From: Flavobacteriaceae bacterium
GTDB taxonomy: Bacteria; Bacteroidota; Bacteroidia; Flavobacteriales; Flavobacteriaceae
Assembly: GCA_028284745.1 (NCBI GenBank)
Contig: JANQRC010000067.1
Location: forward strand, 1 to 64,000
DNA length: 64,000 nucleotides
Direction: 5' to 3'
The translations under genes and the position numbers were made by a program. The notes beneath the pieces are model-generated. The model searched no databases, was not told where the DNA came from, and saw only the letters and a program-made list of their open reading frames with translations. Positions 48,785-62,657 of this stretch are shown here, piece by piece; the stretch's first letter is position 1; the number at the start of each line of letters is the position of its first letter.

Positions 48785-49822
48785 TCATAGTCGGTTCAAT
48801 GAGGTCCTTAGGTCCTGCTCCCATTTCCAGGCCGAGGATATCATATCTTTCAGCCCGTACCGGGCTTCCCAGCCCAATTCATCTCTGGCAAGGTCTGTGG
48901 CCGCATACAAAACTGCCACATCCCCATCACGCCGTTCTGCCATGCTATAATTTAGGTTTATTCCCGTAACGGATTCAAAGGTGTCAATGACATCCAATAC
49001 TGTGTAACCAATCCCCGTTCCTAAATTAAATACCTCAAAATTGGACTTGTTCTTATCATTCAACAGTCTATTTACAGCAATGACATGAGCTTCTGCAAGG
49101 TCTACCACATGTATGTAGTCCCTTATCGGAGTACCATCTTTAGTGGGATAATCATTGCCGAAAACCTTGAGTTCATCTAAGACGCCCGCAGCACACTGTG
49201 TGACATAAGGAAGCAGATTGTTGGGAACTCCACTTGGGAACTCTCCGATCAAGCCGGATCCATGAGCCCCAATAGGGTTGAAATAACGTAATGAAATCGC
49301 TGAGAAACCACTATTCACTTTCGTGAGATCCTCTAAAATCTCTTCTGCGACCTTTTTTGTGTTTCCATATGGCGAAAAAGGCCGTTTGGTTTCATTCTTT
49401 TCTGTGATGGGCAACGAATCCGGTTCACCGTAAACCGTAGCTGAAGATGAAAAGATGATGTTCTTAATATTGTTATCGATCTGACCTTGAAGCGTATTCA
49501 GCAAAGAAAACATATTATTTCTATAATACATTATGGGTTCTTTGACCGATTCGCCTACTGCTTTATAGGCTGCAAAATTTATGATAGCATCAGTATTGCT
49601 ATGTTTTCTATAGGCTTCTTTGGCTTGTGATTCATCGGCCAGGTCAATTTTCTCGAATGTTGGCCTTATGCCCGTAATTTCTCGTATTCTATCTAGGATG
49701 AGTTCTTTTGAGTTTGATAGGTTGTCAAACACCACAACTTCGTATCCATCCTCTATCAATGAGACCACGGTATGCGACCCAATGTACCCGCATCCGCCAG
49801 TGACAATTATTTTTCCTTTCAT
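48785..49822 (-). CDS. galE: UDP-glucose 4-epimerase
   Basis: The 345-residue extended SDR enzyme has the NAD-binding GGCGYIG (9-15), the Ser of SSSATVYG and the catalytic Tyr152/Lys156 pair (SPYGNTKK). It interconverts UDP-galactose and UDP-glucose and completes the Leloir pathway begun by GalK and GalT. It is the last gene of the minus-strand galactose operon, 7 bases after the FGE gene. Confidence 0.96.
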   Translation of the reverse strand: MKGKIIVTGGCGYIGSHTVVSLIEDGYEVVVFDNLSNSKELILDRIREITGIRPTFEKIDLADESQAKEAYRKHSNTDAIINFAAYKAVGESVKEPIMYYRNNMFSLLNTLQGQIDNNIKNIIFSSSATVYGEPDSLPITEKNETKRPFSPYGNTKKVAEEILEDLTKVNSGFSAISLRYFNPIGAHGSGLIGEFPSGVPNNLLPYVTQCAAGVLDELKVFGNDYPTKDGTPIRDYIHVVDLAEAHVIAVNRLLNDKNKSNFEVFNLGTGIGYTVLDVIDTFESVTGINLNYSMAERRDGDVAVLYAATDLARDELGWEARYGLKDMISSAWKWEQDLRTSLNRL

Positions 49823-49829
49823 GATCTTT

Positions 49830-50957
49830 TTAATTCTTTTGCTTTTTGTCTTTTCGCATATTGACCGTAGTCACGGTTCTAAAGCCGAGATGTTCCAAGG
49901 AGGAATCAGGTGTAGTGGCCATTCTCGAAGAGATTCTGTAGCTGGCGCAATATGATGCATGGCATAGAAAAGAACCTCCTTTGATAATTTTTTCTTTAGC
50001 ATTTGGGGTTGACGGGTTGAAGGCCGTCTTAGGGCCTTTGGGATTTTTTGCAGGGCCTTTCTCTTTTAAATTCTGATAGTAGTCTGTGCTATACCAATCA
50101 CTTGTCCATTCCCATACATTGCCTGCCATATCATACAATCCAAATGCATTCGGAGCGTAAGATCTTACAGGGGCACTACGCTCAAAACCGTCTTCCAGTG
50201 TGTTTCTTACGGGAAATTCCCCTTCCCACGTATTGGCAAAGTTCTTAAGGTCACTCGCCTCATTTCCCCAAAAGAATACATTGTCATTTTGATTTCCTCT
50301 GGCTGCATACTCCCATTCGGCCTCGGTCGGCAGCCTTCTGCCTGCCCATTTGCAATAGGCAAGAGCATCTTCATATGCAACTTGTACGACGGGGTGGTTT
50401 TCCAAGCCCAGTATCGTACTATCAGGGCCTTTGGGATGCTTCCAGTTTGCTCCAGCCGTCCAATTCCACCATTGCGAATAATCCTGCAGGCCAAGAGGAG
50501 TACTATGGCATTTCATAAAGGTCATACTACCAGGCTTCAATACAGAATCATGCGGCTTTGGGATCCCTTCAGGCAATTGTTCTTTTAGTTCCTCCCAATC
50601 GACCTTGCGTTCCGCAACGGTCACATATCCAGTCTCTTCAACAAACTTTGAAAATTGGGCATTGGTCACTTCGTGCACATCCATATAAAAACCATCTACT
50701 TCTACTTCGTGGGCTGGTTTTTCGTGGTCTAGGGCATGCGTGTCAATGGCTAAAGCGCCTTGAGAAAATCTGCCTCCTGGAATCCATACCATGCCATCAA
50801 TATCCTCTCGGGCTGCTTGATCACCGCTGCTTTGCTCGGGGTCGTCCTTGGATCCTCTATACTTCTCATGGTCATTGCAATTTGAGGCAGCAAATGATAC
50901 AAATAAAAGGATCGATACTATTCTAAAATCCTGGGCTTTCGGCTGGAATGAGATCAT
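49830..50957 (-). CDS. Formylglycine-generating enzyme family lipoprotein (sulfatase-maturing)
   Basis: From the ATG at 50957 the 375-residue protein has a putative lipoprotein signal (lipobox FAASNC) and then the FGE/SUMF1 fold: WIPGGRFSQG, EVTNAQFSKFVEETGY, RLPTEAEWEYAARG and GNVWEWTSDWY. The two active-site cysteines of copper-dependent FGEs are present as Cys332 and Cys337 (GGSFLCHASYC), followed by NTPDSS-like TTPDSSLEHLGFR. It should convert the active-site Cys of sulfatases to formylglycine outside the cytoplasm. The ATG overlaps the preceding stop (ATGA). A matching sulfatase lies at 56844-58289. Confidence 0.9.
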   Translation of the reverse strand: MISFQPKAQDFRIVSILLFVSFAASNCNDHEKYRGSKDDPEQSSGDQAAREDIDGMVWIPGGRFSQGALAIDTHALDHEKPAHEVEVDGFYMDVHEVTNAQFSKFVEETGYVTVAERKVDWEELKEQLPEGIPKPHDSVLKPGSMTFMKCHSTPLGLQDYSQWWNWTAGANWKHPKGPDSTILGLENHPVVQVAYEDALAYCKWAGRRLPTEAEWEYAARGNQNDNVFFWGNEASDLKNFANTWEGEFPVRNTLEDGFERSAPVRSYAPNAFGLYDMAGNVWEWTSDWYSTDYYQNLKEKGPAKNPKGPKTAFNPSTPNAKEKIIKGGSFLCHASYCASYRISSRMATTPDSSLEHLGFRTVTTVNMRKDKKQKN

Positions 50958-51871
50958 AATTGAACATTGCAAATTTGAACACCCTCCTTCAAGGACATGA
51001 GCTGGTCATCATATGTGGGTATGAATTCTTGTGCTATATACCCCTTAAACCCAGTACCAGCAATTGCTTGTACAATTGCCTTATAGTTAAGTTCTTGAGA
51101 GTCATTGATCTCATTCCTGCCAGGCACTCCGCCGGTATGGTAATGAGCAAAATATGGGTGGTATTCTTTGATTGTTGAAATGATGTCACCTTCCATGATC
51201 TGCATATGGTATATATCGTAAAGTAGCTTGAAGTTGGGCGACCCTATCTTATCGACCAAAGAGACCCCCCATTGCGTATTGTCACATTGGTATCCACGGT
51301 GGTCTAGCTTGCTGTTAAGAAGTTCCATTACGAGGGTAACCCCAGCCTTCTCGGCATGCTTCACCAACCCTTTTAGGCCATTCGCACAATTTTCCAGTCC
51401 CACTTGGTCAGTCATTCCATCTCTGTTGCCAGAAAACACGATCACCTTGTCTATCCCAAAGTCAGCTGCCTTCATGATCAGAGCTTCATAGTTGGAGATC
51501 AGACCATTGTGGTTCTTGGTATTGTTGAAGCCATTTTCAATACTGACAAACGTGTCTGTAGCCAATGAGCACTCCAAGTTGTGTTTTATAACGACTTCCC
51601 ATTCTTCGGGTTTGAGAAGGTCAATTCCTTTAATGCCTATTTGCCGGACCTTTTCAGAGAATTCTTCCAGCGGGATGTTTTGATAGCACCATCTGCAGAC
51701 GGCATGGTCTATAGCATTCTTCAATGGGCCAATGTTCATCATTTCGAGATCCTTGTCCTTCAATACAGTATTGCCCATTGTCATTCCCCCAACGACTAGG
51801 TGCCCTCCCGCTGAGGCCATTCTTTTTATGGCTCTTCGGCGACTTATTTTGTTCTTATCTCTTTCGGTCAT
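50954..51871 (-). CDS. TIM-barrel sugar isomerase family protein (hydroxypyruvate isomerase-like)
   Basis: The 305-residue protein has a twin-Arg-like N-terminus (SRRRAIKRMASAGG), then an AP-endonuclease-2-type TIM barrel with VTLVMELLNSKLDHRGYQC, NFKLLYDIYHMQIMEGD and YIAQEFIPTYD. These segments contain the Glu, Asp, His and Glu metal ligands of the hydroxypyruvate isomerase (Hyi/OtnI) group. The putative Tat signal suggests action outside the cytoplasm. Its stop overlaps the next gene and its ATG overlaps the galT stop, so it is an integral part of the galactose operon. The true substrate is unknown. Confidence 0.82.
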   Translation of the reverse strand: MTERDKNKISRRRAIKRMASAGGHLVVGGMTMGNTVLKDKDLEMMNIGPLKNAIDHAVCRWCYQNIPLEEFSEKVRQIGIKGIDLLKPEEWEVVIKHNLECSLATDTFVSIENGFNNTKNHNGLISNYEALIMKAADFGIDKVIVFSGNRDGMTDQVGLENCANGLKGLVKHAEKAGVTLVMELLNSKLDHRGYQCDNTQWGVSLVDKIGSPNFKLLYDIYHMQIMEGDIISTIKEYHPYFAHYHTGGVPGRNEINDSQELNYKAIVQAIAGTGFKGYIAQEFIPTYDDQLMSLKEGVQICNVQL

Positions 51872-52887
51872 GGCGAAACAAATGATTTGATTAGCTTGGT
51901 TGCCTGCTCAGCAGTGATATCTCTTTGGGGCGAGCCAAACATCTCATAGCCCACCATGAACTTCTTAACTGTCGCACTACGCAGAAGAGGAGGATAAAAG
52001 CTCATATGAAAATGCCAATGGGAGTTATCTTTTCCGTTGGTGGGCGCTTGATGTATTCCAGCTGAATAGGGGAATGAGGTTTGGAATATTTTATCGTAGG
52101 TCTTTGTTATGACCGAGATAGCCTCGGCAAGACCATATTCCTGAAAGGTATCCAACTTCGCAATGTGGGGGATGTGTGCTTTAGGGGCTATCATGGTCTC
52201 AAATGGCCAAATGGCCCAAAAAGGAACTAGCACCACAAAGTGCTTGTTCTCAAATACGGTCCGCTCTTTCAACGAAAGTTCTTGTTGCAGATAATCGCCC
52301 AGCAAGGATGAGCTATTGATGCTATGATATTCTTTTTGCGTGTTATCCTTTTTCCGGACTTCGTTCGGTAATGAAGACTGGCTCCATATTTGACCGTGGG
52401 GGTGTGGATTGCTACAACCCATTACCGCGCCTTTGTTTTCAAATATTTGAACATAATTTATGAAGTCATAGGCACCCAAAGTAGTATATTCATGTTTCCA
52501 TGCCTGGACCACCTTGCAAATTTCTTCGAGTGCCATGTCTGCCAGGCTTTTCGAATGGTCTGGGCTAAAGCAGATTACTCTACAGATGCCTTTCTCACCT
52601 TCGGCCTTCAAAAGACCTGAGCTCTCGTTAAAAGTGGGTGACGTATCTTGCAACGCGGCAAAATCATTATTGAAAATGAACACATCGTTGTAGTCTGGGT
52701 TCACCTCACCATTGGCTCTTGTATTACCGGCACATAAGTAGCAATTGGGGTCATGAGTGGGCCGTTTTTTGTTTGAAACGGTCTCATTCTGCCCTTGCCA
52801 AGGTCTTTTGGTTCTGTGAGGTGATACCAAAACCCATTCTCCAGTTAGGATATTGTATCGCTTATGAGAGTGATCCTGTAAGTTCAT
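51868..52887 (-). CDS. galT: UDP-glucose-hexose-1-phosphate uridylyltransferase
   Basis: The 339-residue GalT carries the catalytic HPH motif at 162-164 (SNPHPHGQIW, with the second His as nucleophile), a zinc CxxC pair (CYLC, 49-52) and the C-terminal HWHFHMSFYPPLLRS. It exchanges UMP between UDP-glucose and galactose 1-phosphate. It overlaps galK by 4 bases and the isomerase gene by 4 bases. Confidence 0.96.
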   Translation of the reverse strand: MNLQDHSHKRYNILTGEWVLVSPHRTKRPWQGQNETVSNKKRPTHDPNCYLCAGNTRANGEVNPDYNDVFIFNNDFAALQDTSPTFNESSGLLKAEGEKGICRVICFSPDHSKSLADMALEEICKVVQAWKHEYTTLGAYDFINYVQIFENKGAVMGCSNPHPHGQIWSQSSLPNEVRKKDNTQKEYHSINSSSLLGDYLQQELSLKERTVFENKHFVVLVPFWAIWPFETMIAPKAHIPHIAKLDTFQEYGLAEAISVITKTYDKIFQTSFPYSAGIHQAPTNGKDNSHWHFHMSFYPPLLRSATVKKFMVGYEMFGSPQRDITAEQATKLIKSFVSP

Positions 52888-54050
52888 TGTCGGTCGATTG
52901 CATATGTTCCTTTTGATAGATCAATTTTCAGTGGGCTACAATCATAGCCAAACTTTCTATGATATTTTCTTTTCGTATCCTTTAGAAACCCATCGGCATG
53001 ATCCGAGTCAATGATGTTTATAGTGCAGCCACCGAAGCCACCACCCATCATTCGAGCACCTATTACATGCTTAGATGCAATTGCTGACTCAACTAAAAAA
53101 TCTAGTTCATCGCAACTGATCGCGTACTGCCTAGACAGGCCATCGTGAGTTTCAAAAAGTAAGTTTCCGAGAACTTTGATGTCGTTTTTTCGAATCGCTT
53201 CTGCCGCATCTTTTGTGCGTTCAATTTCTTCAACGACAAACAATACTTTTTGATAATCCTCTTCGGTGAGCTTATCATCTCTTAACCTTTTAAGCTCTTC
53301 TTCAGAGACATCCCGCAATGCTTTCTTGCCCAGTAGTTTCGACACATTCTCACATAGCGCCCTGCGTTTATTATAAGTGCTGTCTGAAAGCTTATGCTGG
53401 ACATTCGTGTTTATCAGTATCAATTCATAGTTAGACAAATCGATACGGAAGTTTTTTGATTCTAAAGTTCTACAGTCTAGCAGTAGAAAATGGTTTTCTT
53501 TGCCAAACATACTTGCGTATTGGTCCATGATGCCACATTGAACCCCTACATAGAGGTGTTCGGCGTTTTGCGAGATTTGGATCATCTGCTTTCTCGACAA
53601 TCCCAACTCGAAGACCTCATTGAGCCCGAAGACAATCCCGTTCTCTAATGCCGCTGAGGAAGACAGGCCTGCACCGGCCGGAATATTCCCTCCAAACACA
53701 ATATTGAAAGGTGAGATCTCACAACTTATCTTTTTAAGCTCGGCAACAATTCCGATAAGGTAATTCCGCCATCCGCCATCTTTTAGGGGGTTCAATTCTG
53801 ATAATCCAAATTCGAAGGTTTCCTCATAGTCATAGGCTACCGCATTGCATTTTTTTTGATCCGAATCCTCTGCCTTTTGGATGGCCACCACAATACCTTT
53901 ATCTATCGCTGCTGGAAACACAAAGCCATCATTATAGTCAACGTGTTCGCCAATCAGGTTAATTCTTCCCGGAGAAAAAACAAGCCTGGGCTTTGCTCCG
54001 AACTCAACTTGAAAACTTTTTTCTATCTTATTGATCAATGCTTTGTCCAT
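52884..54050 (-). CDS. galK: Galactokinase
   Basis: The 388-residue GHMP kinase has the galactokinase signature GRINLIGEHVDYNDG (28-42), the ATP loop GAGLSSSAAL (126-135), the catalytic Asp region (CGIMDQYAS) and the C-terminal MMGGGFGGCTI. It phosphorylates galactose at C1. Only 3 bases separate it from the symporter gene upstream. Confidence 0.97.
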   Translation of the reverse strand: MDKALINKIEKSFQVEFGAKPRLVFSPGRINLIGEHVDYNDGFVFPAAIDKGIVVAIQKAEDSDQKKCNAVAYDYEETFEFGLSELNPLKDGGWRNYLIGIVAELKKISCEISPFNIVFGGNIPAGAGLSSSAALENGIVFGLNEVFELGLSRKQMIQISQNAEHLYVGVQCGIMDQYASMFGKENHFLLLDCRTLESKNFRIDLSNYELILINTNVQHKLSDSTYNKRRALCENVSKLLGKKALRDVSEEELKRLRDDKLTEEDYQKVLFVVEEIERTKDAAEAIRKNDIKVLGNLLFETHDGLSRQYAISCDELDFLVESAIASKHVIGARMMGGGFGGCTINIIDSDHADGFLKDTKRKYHRKFGYDCSPLKIDLSKGTYAIDRQ

Positions 54051-54053
54051 AGA

Positions 54054-55634
54054 TCATGAGAAGTAGTAATAGATACCAATAACGATCAAGCAAATCACTG
54101 CACCCGCAGGAATAACGTACTTCCAGGGGATTACATCAACAGCCTCGGACCTATATTGCTCATACGCCGCATCTCTTGGTCTCAATTTTCCTATGATGAA
54201 CATTAGAACTGCATTGAAGACAAAAAGAATGGCCATTACATGCAGGTAATGAGGGAATGTGTCTGGGATCACGAACTCGTCTAACAGAATATAGGCAAGA
54301 TAAAGAAATACGCCCGAGGCCATTGCAACCTTGGCCGCTAAAGCAGGCACGTATTTAGTAAAATACCCCACGACAATGATTGTAAGAATTGGAATGCTGT
54401 AACATCCGTTTACTTTTTGCAGGTATCCAAATAGACCATCGGGTGCATTGGCGATCAATGGTGCGATCAACATGGAGAGAATCGCTAGTACGACACCAAA
54501 GCGCTTTCCGGCTTTTACGGTTTCTAATTCGGTGGCATCCTTTTTAAAATGCGACTTGTAGATGTCTATGCCAAAGAGTGTCACCGAGCTATTTAGAGCT
54601 GAATTGAACGAACTTAGTATGGCACCGAATAGTACTGCGGCAAAAAAGCCGACCAACGAAGCAGGCAATACCTTGGTGATCAACGTGGGATATGCCTCAT
54701 CGGGGTTTTGCAAGCTGTCTCCAAACATGTGAAAGGCGATGATGCCTGGCAACACCACAATTAGAGGCCCTAATATCTTTATAAAGGCTGCTAAGAGCAA
54801 TCCTTTCTGGCCTTCTTTTAGATTTTTAGCCCCCAAAGCTCTTTGTATAATGGCCTGGTTTGTTCCCCAGTAGAAAAGATTTACTAAAAGCATTCCTGTA
54901 AAAATGGTGCCAAAAGGTACAGAGGAATCGGCACCGCCCATAGAGTCGAATTTTTCGGGATGGCTACCTACCAACGTTGATAGTCCTTCAAGAACATTGC
55001 CATCACCTACTGCCAATAAGCCAAAAAATGGTATAAGAAGCCCACCGATGAGCAAGCCTATCGCATTGACCGTGTCCGAAACCGCCACAGCTTTCAAACC
55101 GCCAAAGATAGCGTAGGTCGACCCTACGATACCTATCCCAAATACGGTGACCCAAAGGGCTGTGGTATCGCTTACCCCGAGTAGTCGAGGCACATCGAAC
55201 ATGTTCTTGATCGCCAGTGCACCAGAATAAAGCACAATGGGCAACAACACTACAACATACCCACTCAAGAAAAGGACAGAAGTGAGCGTTTTGGTAAACT
55301 TATCGTAGCGTCTTTCCAAAAATTGAGGAATTGTAGTGATGCCACCTGTTAAATATCTTGGCAGTAAATACAAAGCGGTAACCACCATGGCTATTGCTGC
55401 TATGGTTTCCCACGCCATTACCAATATCCCCTCTTTAAAGGAAGCCCCGTTGAGACCAACGATCTGTTCGGTAGATAAATTGGTAAGCAGCAAGGAGCCT
55501 GCGACCACAACGCCTGTAAGGCTACGCCCACCTAGAAAATAACCATCTGAAGTTGATTCGCCAGTATTCTTACTCTTGAAATATGACACGATTGCTACCA
55601 GGGCCGTAAAACTTATAAAGGCTATTATTTGCAT
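54054..55634 (-). CDS. Sodium:solute symporter family protein, probably galactose transporter
   Basis: From the ATG at 55634 the protein has 526 residues and about 14 transmembrane helices of the SSS/SGLT family (NTGESTSDGYFLGGRSLTG, LLLTNLSTEQIVGLNG, GGLKAVAVSDTVNA). The operon (galK, galT, galE) makes galactose the most likely substrate, driven by Na+. The frame is open 17 codons upstream of this ATG, without membrane or family similarity, so the ATG is preferred. It lies 87 bases downstream of the regulator gene. Confidence 0.9.
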   Translation of the reverse strand: MQIIAFISFTALVAIVSYFKSKNTGESTSDGYFLGGRSLTGVVVAGSLLLTNLSTEQIVGLNGASFKEGILVMAWETIAAIAMVVTALYLLPRYLTGGITTIPQFLERRYDKFTKTLTSVLFLSGYVVVLLPIVLYSGALAIKNMFDVPRLLGVSDTTALWVTVFGIGIVGSTYAIFGGLKAVAVSDTVNAIGLLIGGLLIPFFGLLAVGDGNVLEGLSTLVGSHPEKFDSMGGADSSVPFGTIFTGMLLVNLFYWGTNQAIIQRALGAKNLKEGQKGLLLAAFIKILGPLIVVLPGIIAFHMFGDSLQNPDEAYPTLITKVLPASLVGFFAAVLFGAILSSFNSALNSSVTLFGIDIYKSHFKKDATELETVKAGKRFGVVLAILSMLIAPLIANAPDGLFGYLQKVNGCYSIPILTIIVVGYFTKYVPALAAKVAMASGVFLYLAYILLDEFVIPDTFPHYLHVMAILFVFNAVLMFIIGKLRPRDAAYEQYRSEAVDVIPWKYVIPAGAVICLIVIGIYYYFS

Positions 55635-55721: not shown

Positions 55722-56432
55722 CTAAAGTTCAAAGTCATATCCTTTGGCCGTAAACTCATCAAATTTTTCTTTATTGAATTTGTAGTAGTAAGCTCCCTTT
55801 TTAGAAGAAGATTTGTCTTTCTCGCCTGTTTTGGTCAATATATCATACGATAAAAGCTTTTTTCTAAAGTTTCTGTCGTCTATTTTTCTTTGATAGATGC
55901 TTTCGTACAGTACCTGTATCTGAGGTAATGTGAATTTTTCAGGCAATAGGTTGAAGCCAACGGGCCTCCTCCTGATCTTTATCTTTAAACGTTCAATAGC
56001 TTGTTGGACCATCTTATTGTGATCCAAGATAAGATCTGGGATCTCACTCAGCCCAAACCAATGGGCATCATACTCTTCAACAGATCCCGTATTCATTTGA
56101 TCAAGTCGTATCAGGCTGTAGAAGGCCACTGAGATCACCCTCCCCCCAGGATCCCTGCCTATGTCGCTATAGGTCTTGAACTCTTCGAGGAAAACACCTT
56201 GCAGACCCGTCGATTCATATAGAACCACCTTAGCAGATTCTTCAAGGCTCATGTCCTTTTTGATGAAGGAGCCGACAAGCGACCATTCTCCTTTCAGTGG
56301 TTCAACTTTCCTCCTGAAAAGCAAGAGTTTAATCTCATTGGAGTCAAAGCCGAAAACAACGCAGTCCACAGCCACCAGTATCTTGCTCTGGCCTGTATAG
56401 ACTTTTGACATATCTAGTTCTGCAATGCTCAT
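55722..56432 (-). CDS. Nudix-fold transcriptional regulator (NrtR/AraR-like)
   Basis: The 236-residue protein combines a Nudix-like N-terminal domain (residues about 15-150) with a C-terminal winged-helix domain (TLPQIQVLYESIYQRKIDDRNFRKKLLSYDIL, in part). The catalytic Nudix box is degraded: the REUxEE segment reads VVLYES, so it cannot hydrolyse substrates normally and the fold probably senses a sugar or its metabolite. Relatives regulate NAD synthesis (NrtR) and arabinose use (AraR in Bacteroides). It heads the galactose operon. A palindrome at 56695-56723 overlaps the promoter upstream. Confidence 0.9.
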   Translation of the reverse strand: MSIAELDMSKVYTGQSKILVAVDCVVFGFDSNEIKLLLFRRKVEPLKGEWSLVGSFIKKDMSLEESAKVVLYESTGLQGVFLEEFKTYSDIGRDPGGRVISVAFYSLIRLDQMNTGSVEEYDAHWFGLSEIPDLILDHNKMVQQAIERLKIKIRRRPVGFNLLPEKFTLPQIQVLYESIYQRKIDDRNFRKKLLSYDILTKTGEKDKSSSKKGAYYYKFNKEKFDEFTAKGYDFEL

Positions 56433-56435
56433 GGG

Positions 56436-56669
56436 TCAATTTGCTTTCGGTCGGATGATGCTACCCATTTCCAGTTGTAACTTACTTACAATAGAATCAG
56501 AAGCATTGACTCCTTCAGTGCCATAACTAATCGAATCACCATACCCAAGGTCGTCAACATATAGTATCACCATGTTAGGCCATTGGCTTGATGGTTCCTT
56601 TGTGTTGGCCGTAGGATGGTATCGATAACGCAACCATGCCAAAGCACAAGCTCCTATAAAACCGATCAT
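56436..56669 (-). pseudogene. Truncated sulfatase remnant
   Basis: A 77-codon frame begins with a short hydrophobic region and contains PNMVILYVDDLGYGDSISYG followed by TEGV, the N-terminal metal-binding signature of S1 sulfatases. It then breaks off. The remaining 25 residues (DSIVSKLQLEMGSII) might be the original C-terminus, which would make it an internal deletion. The Cys-x-Pro-Ser-Arg active site is absent. It stops 3 bases before the ATG of the Nudix regulator and follows the predicted promoter, so it is likely translated as a leader ORF of that gene. Confidence 0.75.
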
Positions 56670-56689
56670 GGGTTATTGATAGCATGCAA

Positions 56690-56697
56690 CAAATATA
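56690..56697 (-). promoter_or_regulatory. Predicted -7 element (TATATTTG) ahead of the galactose operon
   Basis: The minus strand reads TATATTTG, an exact match, about 20 bases before the ATG of the sulfatase remnant. It overlaps the end of the palindrome at 56695-56723 by three bases, so a bound protein would block the promoter. Confidence 0.6.
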
Positions 56698-56723
56698 ATA
56701 AATGTAAAATTTACATTTATTAT
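56695..56723. promoter_or_regulatory. 29-base perfect palindrome, probable operator of the galactose regulator
   Basis: Arms of 14 bases (ATAATAAATGTAAA and its exact complement) flank one central base. It covers the spacer between the -33 and -7 regions of the minus-strand promoter. The half-site TAATAAATGTA occurs again in the sulfatase promoter region at 58327. The nearest regulator is the Nudix-fold protein at 55722-56432. Confidence 0.75.
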
Positions 56724-56843
56724 GATTCCCGCATTTTTTTGTCATTTTATGGTTTTCTTCTACGATCAACAGGGATTAGCCATCATTCATCTAAAAACTA
56801 GCGCAGCTAGCACACAGAATACAAATAACCCATTCTTATAGTT

Positions 56844-58289
56844 TTAATGCTTTGCTTTTCCCCAAAGCAATTCCCTTTCCCGGTCATGGTCTGGATTCTC
56901 AATAGGGTCTTGGGCGCCCACTTCTTTCTTCCAGCTATTTAATAGCGCTAGAAGCTGGTTTGCCTTTTCTGGATGTTCAGAAACAAGGTTGTGACGTTCA
57001 CCTATGTCTTCTTTAAGGTTATACAGTTGTAGCGTATCCCTTTCGTATGCATCAATGAGCTTCCAATTCCCTTTCCTTACAGCACTATATGGAATTGCCC
57101 CTTGGATATGATAATGCGGATAGTGCCAAAAGATGGCATCTCTTTCGGGTTTCCTGCCAGACAATAAGAACGGAGAAAGATTTTCTCCATCGATGTTACG
57201 TTGTCCCGTGCCCGTGCCTCCCAACAATCCCATGATGGTTGGGTAGATGTCTGGTGAAGTGGCCATTGCATCAGTAGATACACCGCCATTTATTTCTTTA
57301 GGCCAACTTATTATTAGCGGCACTCTAACACCACCCTCATAAATATTGCCTTTGCCTTCACGAAGCGGAAAGTTTGACGTTACCCTTGGCTTTTTAGATT
57401 CGTCTCCTCTATTGCCTATCAATCCGCCATTATCACTCGAAAAGATTATGATAGTGTTCTCATAGATGCCTGCTTTTTTTAAGGCACCGACAACTGCGCC
57501 AAAAGCATCGTCCGTATGCTCTACCATAGCAGCATAGGTTGGGTTGGATTGTAGGGCATCTTTGTCAACTATGCTTTTGTATTTTTCTATCTTCTCTGTT
57601 TTGGCCTCTAGCGGGGTATGGACATTGTAGAGCCAAAAATTTAAAAAGAAAGGAGTGTCTCTATTGTTAGCAATAAAATTTACGGCTTCTTGGGATAGGC
57701 GCTCAGTAAGATATTCTCCTGTGGGCCCATCTGCTAATCGAGGATTGTTGTATGGCGAGAAGTAGCCTCCTTTTTTATTCACCTTATTCGGTGCGCCTTT
57801 TCTCCATCCCGCGATGTTCACATCAAACCCATGGTGTTCAGGCCAATATTGTTCTTCCTCCCCTAGATGCCATTTACCAATATGAACTGTCTTGTAGCCT
57901 TTGCTCTTTAAGGCTTCTGCCAGTGTGGTATCACTATCTTGAATATGTTGAGTCCAATCAGGTGCCTTGTATTTTGAATAGGGCTTGCTGTAGCCTTCGA
58001 TCCAATCGGTAGTGTTTATGGTAGCAGGGTATTTGCCTGTCATGATACTAGCACGAGAAGGGGAGCAAACCGTGCATGCGGCATAGGCATCTGTAAATCT
58101 CACACCCTCTTCGGCCAATTGGTCTATGTGAGGTGTTTGATAAAATTCACTGCCATAACACGAGAGGTCCGTCCACCCCAGGTCATCAACCAGGAAAAGT
58201 ATGACGTTTGCCTTTTTTTGACCTTCTTCCTTAGTACCAGACTTGCAGTTGACCAACAATAGAAAACATAACGGGAGATAATACCTCAT
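56844..58289 (-). CDS. FGE-dependent S1 family sulfatase, lipoprotein
   Basis: The 481-residue protein has a lipobox ending at Cys15 (LLVNC), the metal-binding LVDDLGWTDLSCYGS and the active-site motif C75-S-P-S-R79 followed by ASIMTGKYP. Cys75 would be converted to formylglycine. Further features are HIGKWHLG and SSDNGG. It should remove sulfate esters from a carbohydrate at the cell envelope. The substrate class cannot be fixed from sequence, but the galactose operon next to it suggests a sulfated galactan. The FGE at 49830-50957 can activate it. Confidence 0.92.
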   Translation of the reverse strand: MRYYLPLCFLLLVNCKSGTKEEGQKKANVILFLVDDLGWTDLSCYGSEFYQTPHIDQLAEEGVRFTDAYAACTVCSPSRASIMTGKYPATINTTDWIEGYSKPYSKYKAPDWTQHIQDSDTTLAEALKSKGYKTVHIGKWHLGEEEQYWPEHHGFDVNIAGWRKGAPNKVNKKGGYFSPYNNPRLADGPTGEYLTERLSQEAVNFIANNRDTPFFLNFWLYNVHTPLEAKTEKIEKYKSIVDKDALQSNPTYAAMVEHTDDAFGAVVGALKKAGIYENTIIIFSSDNGGLIGNRGDESKKPRVTSNFPLREGKGNIYEGGVRVPLIISWPKEINGGVSTDAMATSPDIYPTIMGLLGGTGTGQRNIDGENLSPFLLSGRKPERDAIFWHYPHYHIQGAIPYSAVRKGNWKLIDAYERDTLQLYNLKEDIGERHNLVSEHPEKANQLLALLNSWKKEVGAQDPIENPDHDRERELLWGKAKH

Positions 58290-58326
58290 GATCTTAAAAG
58301 TAAAATGTTTCTGACCAAGGTAAAAA

Positions 58327-58344
58327 TAATAAATGTATTTATTA
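58327..58344. promoter_or_regulatory. Palindromic site ahead of the sulfatase gene
   Basis: TAATAAA-TGTA-TTTATTA has 7-base complementary arms and contains TAATAAATGTA, the half-site of the larger palindrome at 56695-56723. It is 38 bases upstream of the sulfatase ATG and may bind the same regulator. Confidence 0.55.
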
Positions 58345-58678
58345 CACTTATAAAGTGTCTTCTTACTTTAAAAGAATAACCTTGAATACTTTACAAGACG
58401 AACATTGAAACATTTTGCATTGCTTTATGAAAAATGTTTAAGGCTTTCCTTGAGCCGCATGATTTGTATTGGCAGGCTTGTTTGTCGTTCTGCAACCTAC
58501 TTTTCATGGATGTGCTAGCACACTTTGGACATTATACCTTTCCCATGCCCTAATTTGAAACACTGCTTAAGGGAACTTGCCCTGACTAAAAACACATAAA
58601 ACTCCAGCAAATATCATAAAGCTGTTTTTTTTTGACCAAAATTCCAGTAGCTTTGAAAACAACCATGCACACTGTATA
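58345..58678. other. Divergent intergenic region between sulfatase and GH3 genes
   Basis: No gene is seen here. TAGCTTTG at 58648-58655 fits a -7 box 23 bases before the GH3 ATG; a TTTG lies only 13 bases upstream of it, which is shorter than usual. I found no third copy of the palindrome half-site on the GH3 side. Confidence 0.45.
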
Positions 58679-62583: not shown

Positions 62584-62609
62584 AAAAAAATCCCGCCCGA
62601 AGGCAGGAT
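62584..62609 (-). terminator. Intrinsic terminator of the pyruvate dehydrogenase E2 gene
   Basis: On the minus strand ATCCTGCC, a TTCG tetraloop and GGCGGGAT form an 8-bp stem with one G-T pair, followed by seven T. It lies about 50 bases beyond the stop of the E2 gene. Confidence 0.88.
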
Positions 62610-62622
62610 TCCTTTATCATGG

Positions 62623-62642
62623 ATTCCTGCCTTCGCAGGAAT
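62623..62642. repeat. REP-like hairpin
   Basis: ATTCCTGC, a 4-base loop and GCAGGAAT form a perfect 8-bp stem followed by GACA. It resembles the ATTCCTGCGAAGGCAGGAAT elements widespread in bacteria. It sits 13 bases from the similar terminator hairpin, and the two share the CCTGCCTTCG core. Confidence 0.6.
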
Positions 62643-62657
62643 GACAATCCAAACTCC

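Follow-up and report, generated by a model that had tools for sequence, protein, structure and literature searches.

A Candidate Galactose-Responsive Relative of AraR Linked to Galactose and Sulfatase Genes in a Flavobacteriaceae Bacterium

Organization of the Galactose Operon and the Sulfatase Gene

The window analyzed here is a 64,000-nucleotide stretch of DNA from a Flavobacteriaceae bacterium, and its minus strand carries an operon running from 56690 to 48785 that comprises, in this order, a sulfatase remnant and the genes for a regulator, a sodium:solute symporter (SSS), GalK, GalT, a TIM-barrel protein, a formylglycine-generating enzyme (FGE), and GalE (Table 1). An initial sequence-only reading had described the operon as headed by the regulator and its promoter as covered by a 29-base perfect palindrome. 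The palindrome was found as described, overlapping the -7 box, and it does precede the operon, but a 77-codon sulfatase remnant lies between it and the regulator gene. Symporters 65–71% identical to the window SSS adjoin the regulator at four other loci (L067, L072, L076, and L077), and homologues of the TIM-barrel protein have an operator of their own at these four loci and at L037.

The best relative of the window sulfatase in the PDB is 9fo1, an S1_16 kappa-carrageenan sulfatase from Bryobacteraceae, which is an exo enzyme that desulfates galactose 4-sulfate located at non-reducing ends (PMC11760155). The window sulfatase, judged by this relationship, probably strips sulfate from galactose. 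The genome encodes three full sulfatases, one of which carries an operator. The operon FGE contains the catalytic motif CHxxYC (GGSFLCHASYC), and it is the sole protein among the PF03781 matches of the genome in which this motif was recognized.

Table 1. Coordinates of genes and regulatory elements in the window
Feature	Position	Strand	Basis
UDP-glucose 4-epimerase GalE	48785-49822	-	Pfam Epimerase 5.1e-47, GDP_Man_Dehyd 5.5e-48; name from family and operon context
Formylglycine-generating enzyme (FGE)	49830-50972	-	Pfam 4.2e-81; human FGE 1y1e, E 1.8e-78
Xylose-isomerase-like TIM-barrel protein	50954-51871	-	Pfam AP_endonuc_2 1e-22
Galactose-1-phosphate uridylyltransferase GalT	51868-52887	-	Pfam 2.1e-67
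Galactokinase GalK	52884-54050	-	Pfam GalKase_gal_bdg 2.7e-22
Sodium:solute symporter (SSS), probable galactose permease	54054-55634	-	Pfam SSF 2e-50
NrtR/AraR-family regulator, galactose-type	55722-56432	-	Pfam, BtAraR match, AF2 model
Sulfatase 5' remnant, 77-codon ORF	56436-56669	-	Best match sulfatase L032:7427, E 7.7e-8
-7 promoter element TATATTTG	56690-56697	-	Fits TAnnTTTG; overlaps operator 1
Operator 1	56695-56723	.	Perfect 29-bp palindrome, 14-bp arms, centre 56709
Sulfatase, Cys-type CSPSR active-site motif	56844-58289	-	Pfam Sulfatase 1.3e-60; 9fo1, E 1.7e-136
Operator 2	58326-58354	.	Imperfect palindrome, TGT-N7-ACA (AraR register), centre 58340

Family and Fold of the Regulator

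In Pfam, the regulator matched NrtR_WHD (PF21906) above the cut-off (1.2e-25), AraR_C (3.4e-11), and NUDIX (1.8e-7), and the genome encodes no other NrtR_WHD protein. Both features of the NrtR family were present, namely an impaired Nudix-fold N-terminus and an NrtR winged-helix C-terminus. As the sequence-only reading had noticed, the Nudix box is degenerate, with VVLYES filling the REUxEE positions at residues 69–74. The closest characterized protein was AraR of Bacteroides thetaiotaomicron (BtAraR; 5bs6, E 1.8e-64), and the AF2 model of the regulator (pLDDT 88.8) gave 5deq as its top fold match (Z 26.1), with a structural identity to BtAraR of 45%.

Operator Sites and Promoter Geometry

Operator 1, ATAATAAATGTAAA-A-TTTACATTTATTAT, is much longer than any other perfect palindrome of the window, the runner-up having arms of 9 bp, close to chance expectation. 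The window holds just two copies of the half-site TAATAAATGTA, at 56696 and 58327, and its complement is confined to operator 1. The earlier claim that this half-site recurs in a shorter palindrome before the sulfatase gene was correct as to the recurrence at 58327, but the true register there is TGT-N7-ACA, centred at 58340, which is the register of the operator in the AraR crystal complex (PMC4666351). We discarded the short repeat AATAAAT-GT-ATTTATT as a candidate for operator 2, as this region scored 0.6 bits out of the AraR register versus 32.2 bits in register.

A weight matrix built from 16 sites of other genomes, with the window excluded, scored operator 1 at 43.1 bits, operator 2 at 32.2 bits, and the next best place in the window at 2.8 bits; the training sites had been preselected by their TGT-N7-ACA core, so that the core is not independent in these scores, while the AATAA/TTATT flanking arms and the gene positions are. 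The maximum over 60 random Markov windows was 12.3 bits. The genome-wide scan that had been proposed for the sites was carried out with a 25-bp consensus over the whole 2.8-Mb genome, and operators 1 and 2 were the sole matches within three mismatches, with one match for the reversed control pattern. A looser pattern with two mismatches gave 74 matches versus 78 in its reversed control, which is the chance level, and we therefore claim no further regulon members from it. One place matching the looser pattern with a single mismatch (C8:17511) falls within an apparent cas9 coding sequence; around 17.5 kb (L133), this contig carries look-alikes of cas9, cas1, and cas2 of a type II CRISPR-Cas system, as judged by eye. 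Elsewhere in the window, an intergenic inverted repeat at 62590–62650 resembles CTGCCTTCGCAGGAATGACA and is probably a dispersed repeat.

The sequence TAnnTTTG is the -7 promoter consensus of Bacteroidota. In ten promoters, that of the window and nine from other genomes, it begins exactly 12 bp past the operator centre and overlaps the operator. Downstream of operator 2, the -7 box TATTTTTA departs from TAnnTTTG, and no perfect match was found there. As operator 1 overlaps the promoter, a bound dimer would occlude it, so that the regulator likely works as AraR does, by repression that a sugar lifts. A GH3 gene on the plus strand (58679), the start of which is 339 bp away from operator 2, was left out of the proposed regulon.

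Phylogeny and Gene Linkage of the Regulator Clade

In a maximum-likelihood tree of 102 regulator homologues, the window regulator fell in a 39-member clade (98/89), apart from the AraR proteins linked to araBDA. The comparison with AraR and NrtR that had been called for thus placed it separately from both, and the sugar genes found near regulators of this clade, hereafter the galactose clade, were galK and galT. Sites near orthologous regulators, on which the sequence-only reading had staked its proposal, were also present: an operator in the AraR register precedes the regulator or a sugar gene at 29 of the 39 loci, and under the strict rule none was found at the other ten, including Arenibacter loci without galK nearby. 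In these relatives, palindromes in the AraR register adjoin the starts of the regulator gene, galK, and galT, and operators also precede genes for GH2, GH53 galactanase, SusC, SSS, TIM-barrel, and sulfatase proteins. Three Arenibacter members of the clade (L055, L056, and L058) and L034 had neither galK or galT nearby nor a detected operator; the neighbours of the L034 regulator include a possible sugar kinase, a nucleotidyltransferase, and an SSS transporter.

Operator-bearing sulfatase genes were found at three loci of different genera, the window, L032, and L078. In Gramella jeungdoensis (L078), an operator and a sulfatase come after the regulator, and an FGE-type protein nearby is 57% identical to the window FGE. 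In genome G038 (L032), the regulator comes after five sulfatases, the last of which has an operator ahead of it. This last arrangement bears on the remnant in the window, because the best match of the remnant, L032:7427, is flanked by an operator and the regulator; operator–sulfatase–regulator may thus be the older order, decayed in the window.

Six Chitinophaga regulators (L085, L087, L090, L095, L098, and L103) formed a sister group to the galactose clade, with K179 and an intermediate pocket of V, G, and F at the positions described below. No gal or ara marker genes were found near these loci, and a reading of L085 and L087 revealed no obvious sugar genes. At three loci from Parabacteroides and a Tannerellaceae MAG (L066, L073, and L080), AraR-type regulators and araDA(B) are found no more than 10 kb away from galK, so that galactose and arabinose genes are connected there in a different manner. 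Two genomes, G358 and G382, each carry two regulator copies, and the copies fetched from them (L161 and L162, respectively) have the galactose-type pocket.

Residues of the Sugar Pocket

The residues of BtAraR that hydrogen-bond the sugar, R34, R86, and H131, are kept in the window regulator as R41, R93, and H138, and these three, like Y5 and F49, vary in neither the galactose clade nor the AraR clade. Three other pocket positions differ: F36, G48, and F129 of AraR are replaced by V43, S55, and L136. Position 36 is V or I in 38 of 39 members of the galactose clade versus F in 40 of 49 of the AraR clade, position 48 is other than Gly in 37/39 versus Gly in 49/49, and position 129 is L or I in 38/39 versus F in 44/49, counts that largely represent one clade-level event. 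The pocket signature agreed in held-out loci fetched later. D-Galactopyranose is L-arabinopyranose with an additional C6. In AraR, F36 lines C4 and C5 of the sugar (PMC4666351), so that V or I at this position plausibly makes room for the C6 of galactose.

Residue 179 and Recognition of the Operator

Six DNA-contacting residues, K179, R180, N181, K184, K204, and R205, are reported to be conserved in all AraR orthologues, and K179 contacts the first G of GTGT in the AraR–DNA complex (PMC4666351). The window regulator keeps R180, N181, K184, and K204, has K in place of R205, and has D in place of K179 (D186). K179 is replaced in 38 of the 39 galactose-clade members, whose half-sites are mostly ATGT or ACGT. 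The half-site base at -7 was G in 36 of 58 cases with K179 versus 7 of 66 without it (Fisher 1.3e-9, for related sequences and uncorrected for kinship). L065, which retains K179 within the galactose clade, has a GTGT/ACAC site. L071, with S179 and a GCGT site, is an exception, and in several sites of the AraR clade one or both of the -7 positions are A. Among held-out loci, the base mostly agreed overall: three of four VSL-type regulators had an upstream site in which both -7 positions are A, and the sites upstream of FGFK-type regulators mostly had at least one G there.

Proposed Regulation and Competing Explanations

Gene content, the residues of the pocket, and the geometry of the promoter are the grounds on which we infer both galactose sensing and the sign of regulation. 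These data make it quite probable that the regulator is a D-galactose-inducible repressor that coordinates desulfation, uptake, and the Leloir pathway, and they support the proposal of the sequence-only reading that a galactose-sensing regulator couples desulfation to galactose use. The regulator would be a homodimeric repressor of the NrtR/AraR type that binds D-galactose in its catalytically dead Nudix domain. When galactose is absent, it would occupy the TGT-N7-ACA palindromes and block its own operon, through operator 1 over the -7 box, and the sulfatase gene 1.6 kb away, through operator 2 in the sulfatase promoter region. When galactose binds, the winged-helix domains would rotate as they do in AraR and free both promoters, and the uptake system, the Leloir pathway, a presumably exported sulfatase of the galactose-4-sulfate type, and its activating FGE would rise together. 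Since the operator recurs only once more in the genome, before a sulfatase gene, both steps of sulfated-galactan consumption appear to be under a single switch.

For the subclade as a whole, a broader scheme appears reasonably likely. In this AraR-like group of Bacteroidota, the effector would have switched from L-arabinose to D-galactose through three pocket residues, with smaller residues at 36 and 129, Ser at 48, and R34, R86, and H131 retained. Base recognition would have changed together with it through residue 179, from GTGT towards ATGT with the loss of K179, and some lineages would have extended the regulon to sulfatases and FGE, so that one regulator couples desulfation to galactose use.

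The effector might instead be galactose 1-phosphate, galactose 6-phosphate, or UDP-galactose, with the rest of the model unchanged. NrtR relatives bind ADP-ribose (PMC4666351), and the F36 side chain of AraR fills the space of the alpha-phosphate, part of which V or I would reopen. However, the ADP-ribose phosphate contacts of Shewanella oneidensis NrtR, Lys76, Arg98, and Asn43, correspond to S74, G96, and V43 in the window regulator. Across the galactose clade, the residues with which NrtR contacts phosphate and base are missing: Lys76 is replaced by S, I, F, or L and Arg98 by Gly (position 89, 39/39), while Tyr5, which occupies the space of Arg98 in AraR, is kept in 39/39. The Gly at position 89 and the missing phosphate contacts argue for a free-sugar effector, and we regard a phosphorylated or nucleotide-linked one as unlikely.

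It is rather improbable that the gal operon is regulated as proposed while operator 2 is non-functional and the sulfatase is under other control. The inner arms of operator 2 match at only 9 of 12 positions, the site is degenerate, with AG at the -7 positions, and the perfect TAnnTTTG is missing downstream; yet its score stands far above the next best place in the window, it is unique in the genome besides operator 1, and the sulfatases of L032 and L078 carry the same operator.

We consider it very unlikely that the regulator is an ordinary L-arabinose-sensing AraR lying beside gal genes by chance. The 45% structural identity to BtAraR, the retention of every hydrogen-bonding sugar contact, the 65% identity of the window symporter to the ara-operon symporter of L042, and the occurrence of galK near AraR-type regulators in Parabacteroides would fit such a protein. 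Against it stand the separate supported clade with its different pocket signature, the linkage to galKT, GH53, and GH2 genes, and the absence of AraA from the genome, although the identical query detected AraA in three relatives. Use of the palindrome by another DNA-binding protein, such as a Crp-like regulator, is highly improbable: Bacteroides ara and xyl promoters do also carry a Crp-like palindrome, wwwTATGTTnTAnAACATAwww (PMC3878776), but the sites here are in the exact TGT-N7-ACA register of the AraR–DNA crystal complex, and their -7 base tracks residue 179 of the linked regulator, including that of L065. The AraR, NrtR, and Crp-type readings were all ranked below the galactose-inducible repressor.

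Relation to Known Systems

The regulator is a relative of AraR that has apparently been re-tuned to galactose. It shares with AraR of B. thetaiotaomicron (BT0354; 5BS6, 5DD4, 5DDG, and 5DEQ; PMC4666351) the fold, the domains, the dead Nudix box, R34/R86/H131, the DNA contacts R180/N181, the TGT-N7-ACA register, and an autoregulated sugar operon with glycan-degradation targets. It differs in its linkage to galactose rather than arabinose genes, its separate clade, the replacements F36V, G48S, F129L, and K179D, its ATGT half-sites, and a regulon with a sulfatase and FGE. What is new here is the probable effector and the operator variant, the regulator family being already known; in the literature searched, we found no galactose-responsive regulator of the NrtR family. 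If the model is correct, it would provide an experimentally accessible switch of both effector and operator specificity within one solved family, set by three pocket positions and one DNA-contact position in proteins whose sister has crystal structures. The galactose branch of sulfated-galactan use in Bacteroidota would gain a regulator as well, and galactan loci, sulfatases included, could be annotated with the help of a readable motif.

Regulated galactan desulfation is also described for one marine member of the Bacteroidota, in the carrageenan regulon of Zobellia galactanivorans (PMC5698469). The carrageenan cluster there has an AraC-family activator, CgrA, and no regulator of the galactose (Leloir) branch was found in the part of that source consulted. 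NrtR of S. oneidensis (3GZ5, 3GZ6, and 3GZ8) resembles the window regulator in its fold (Z 22) and degenerate Nudix box but responds to ADP-ribose and controls NAD genes, whereas the window regulator lacks the phosphate contacts and is linked to a gal operon. XylR (BT0791), of the NrtR family, is likewise a sugar regulator of Bacteroidota beside catabolic genes (PMC3878776); its genes are for xylose, and it was reported to branch apart from AraR with 33% identity (PMC4666351). In our tree, L047, which lies beside possible xylose genes, branches outside the group formed by the AraR and galactose clades.
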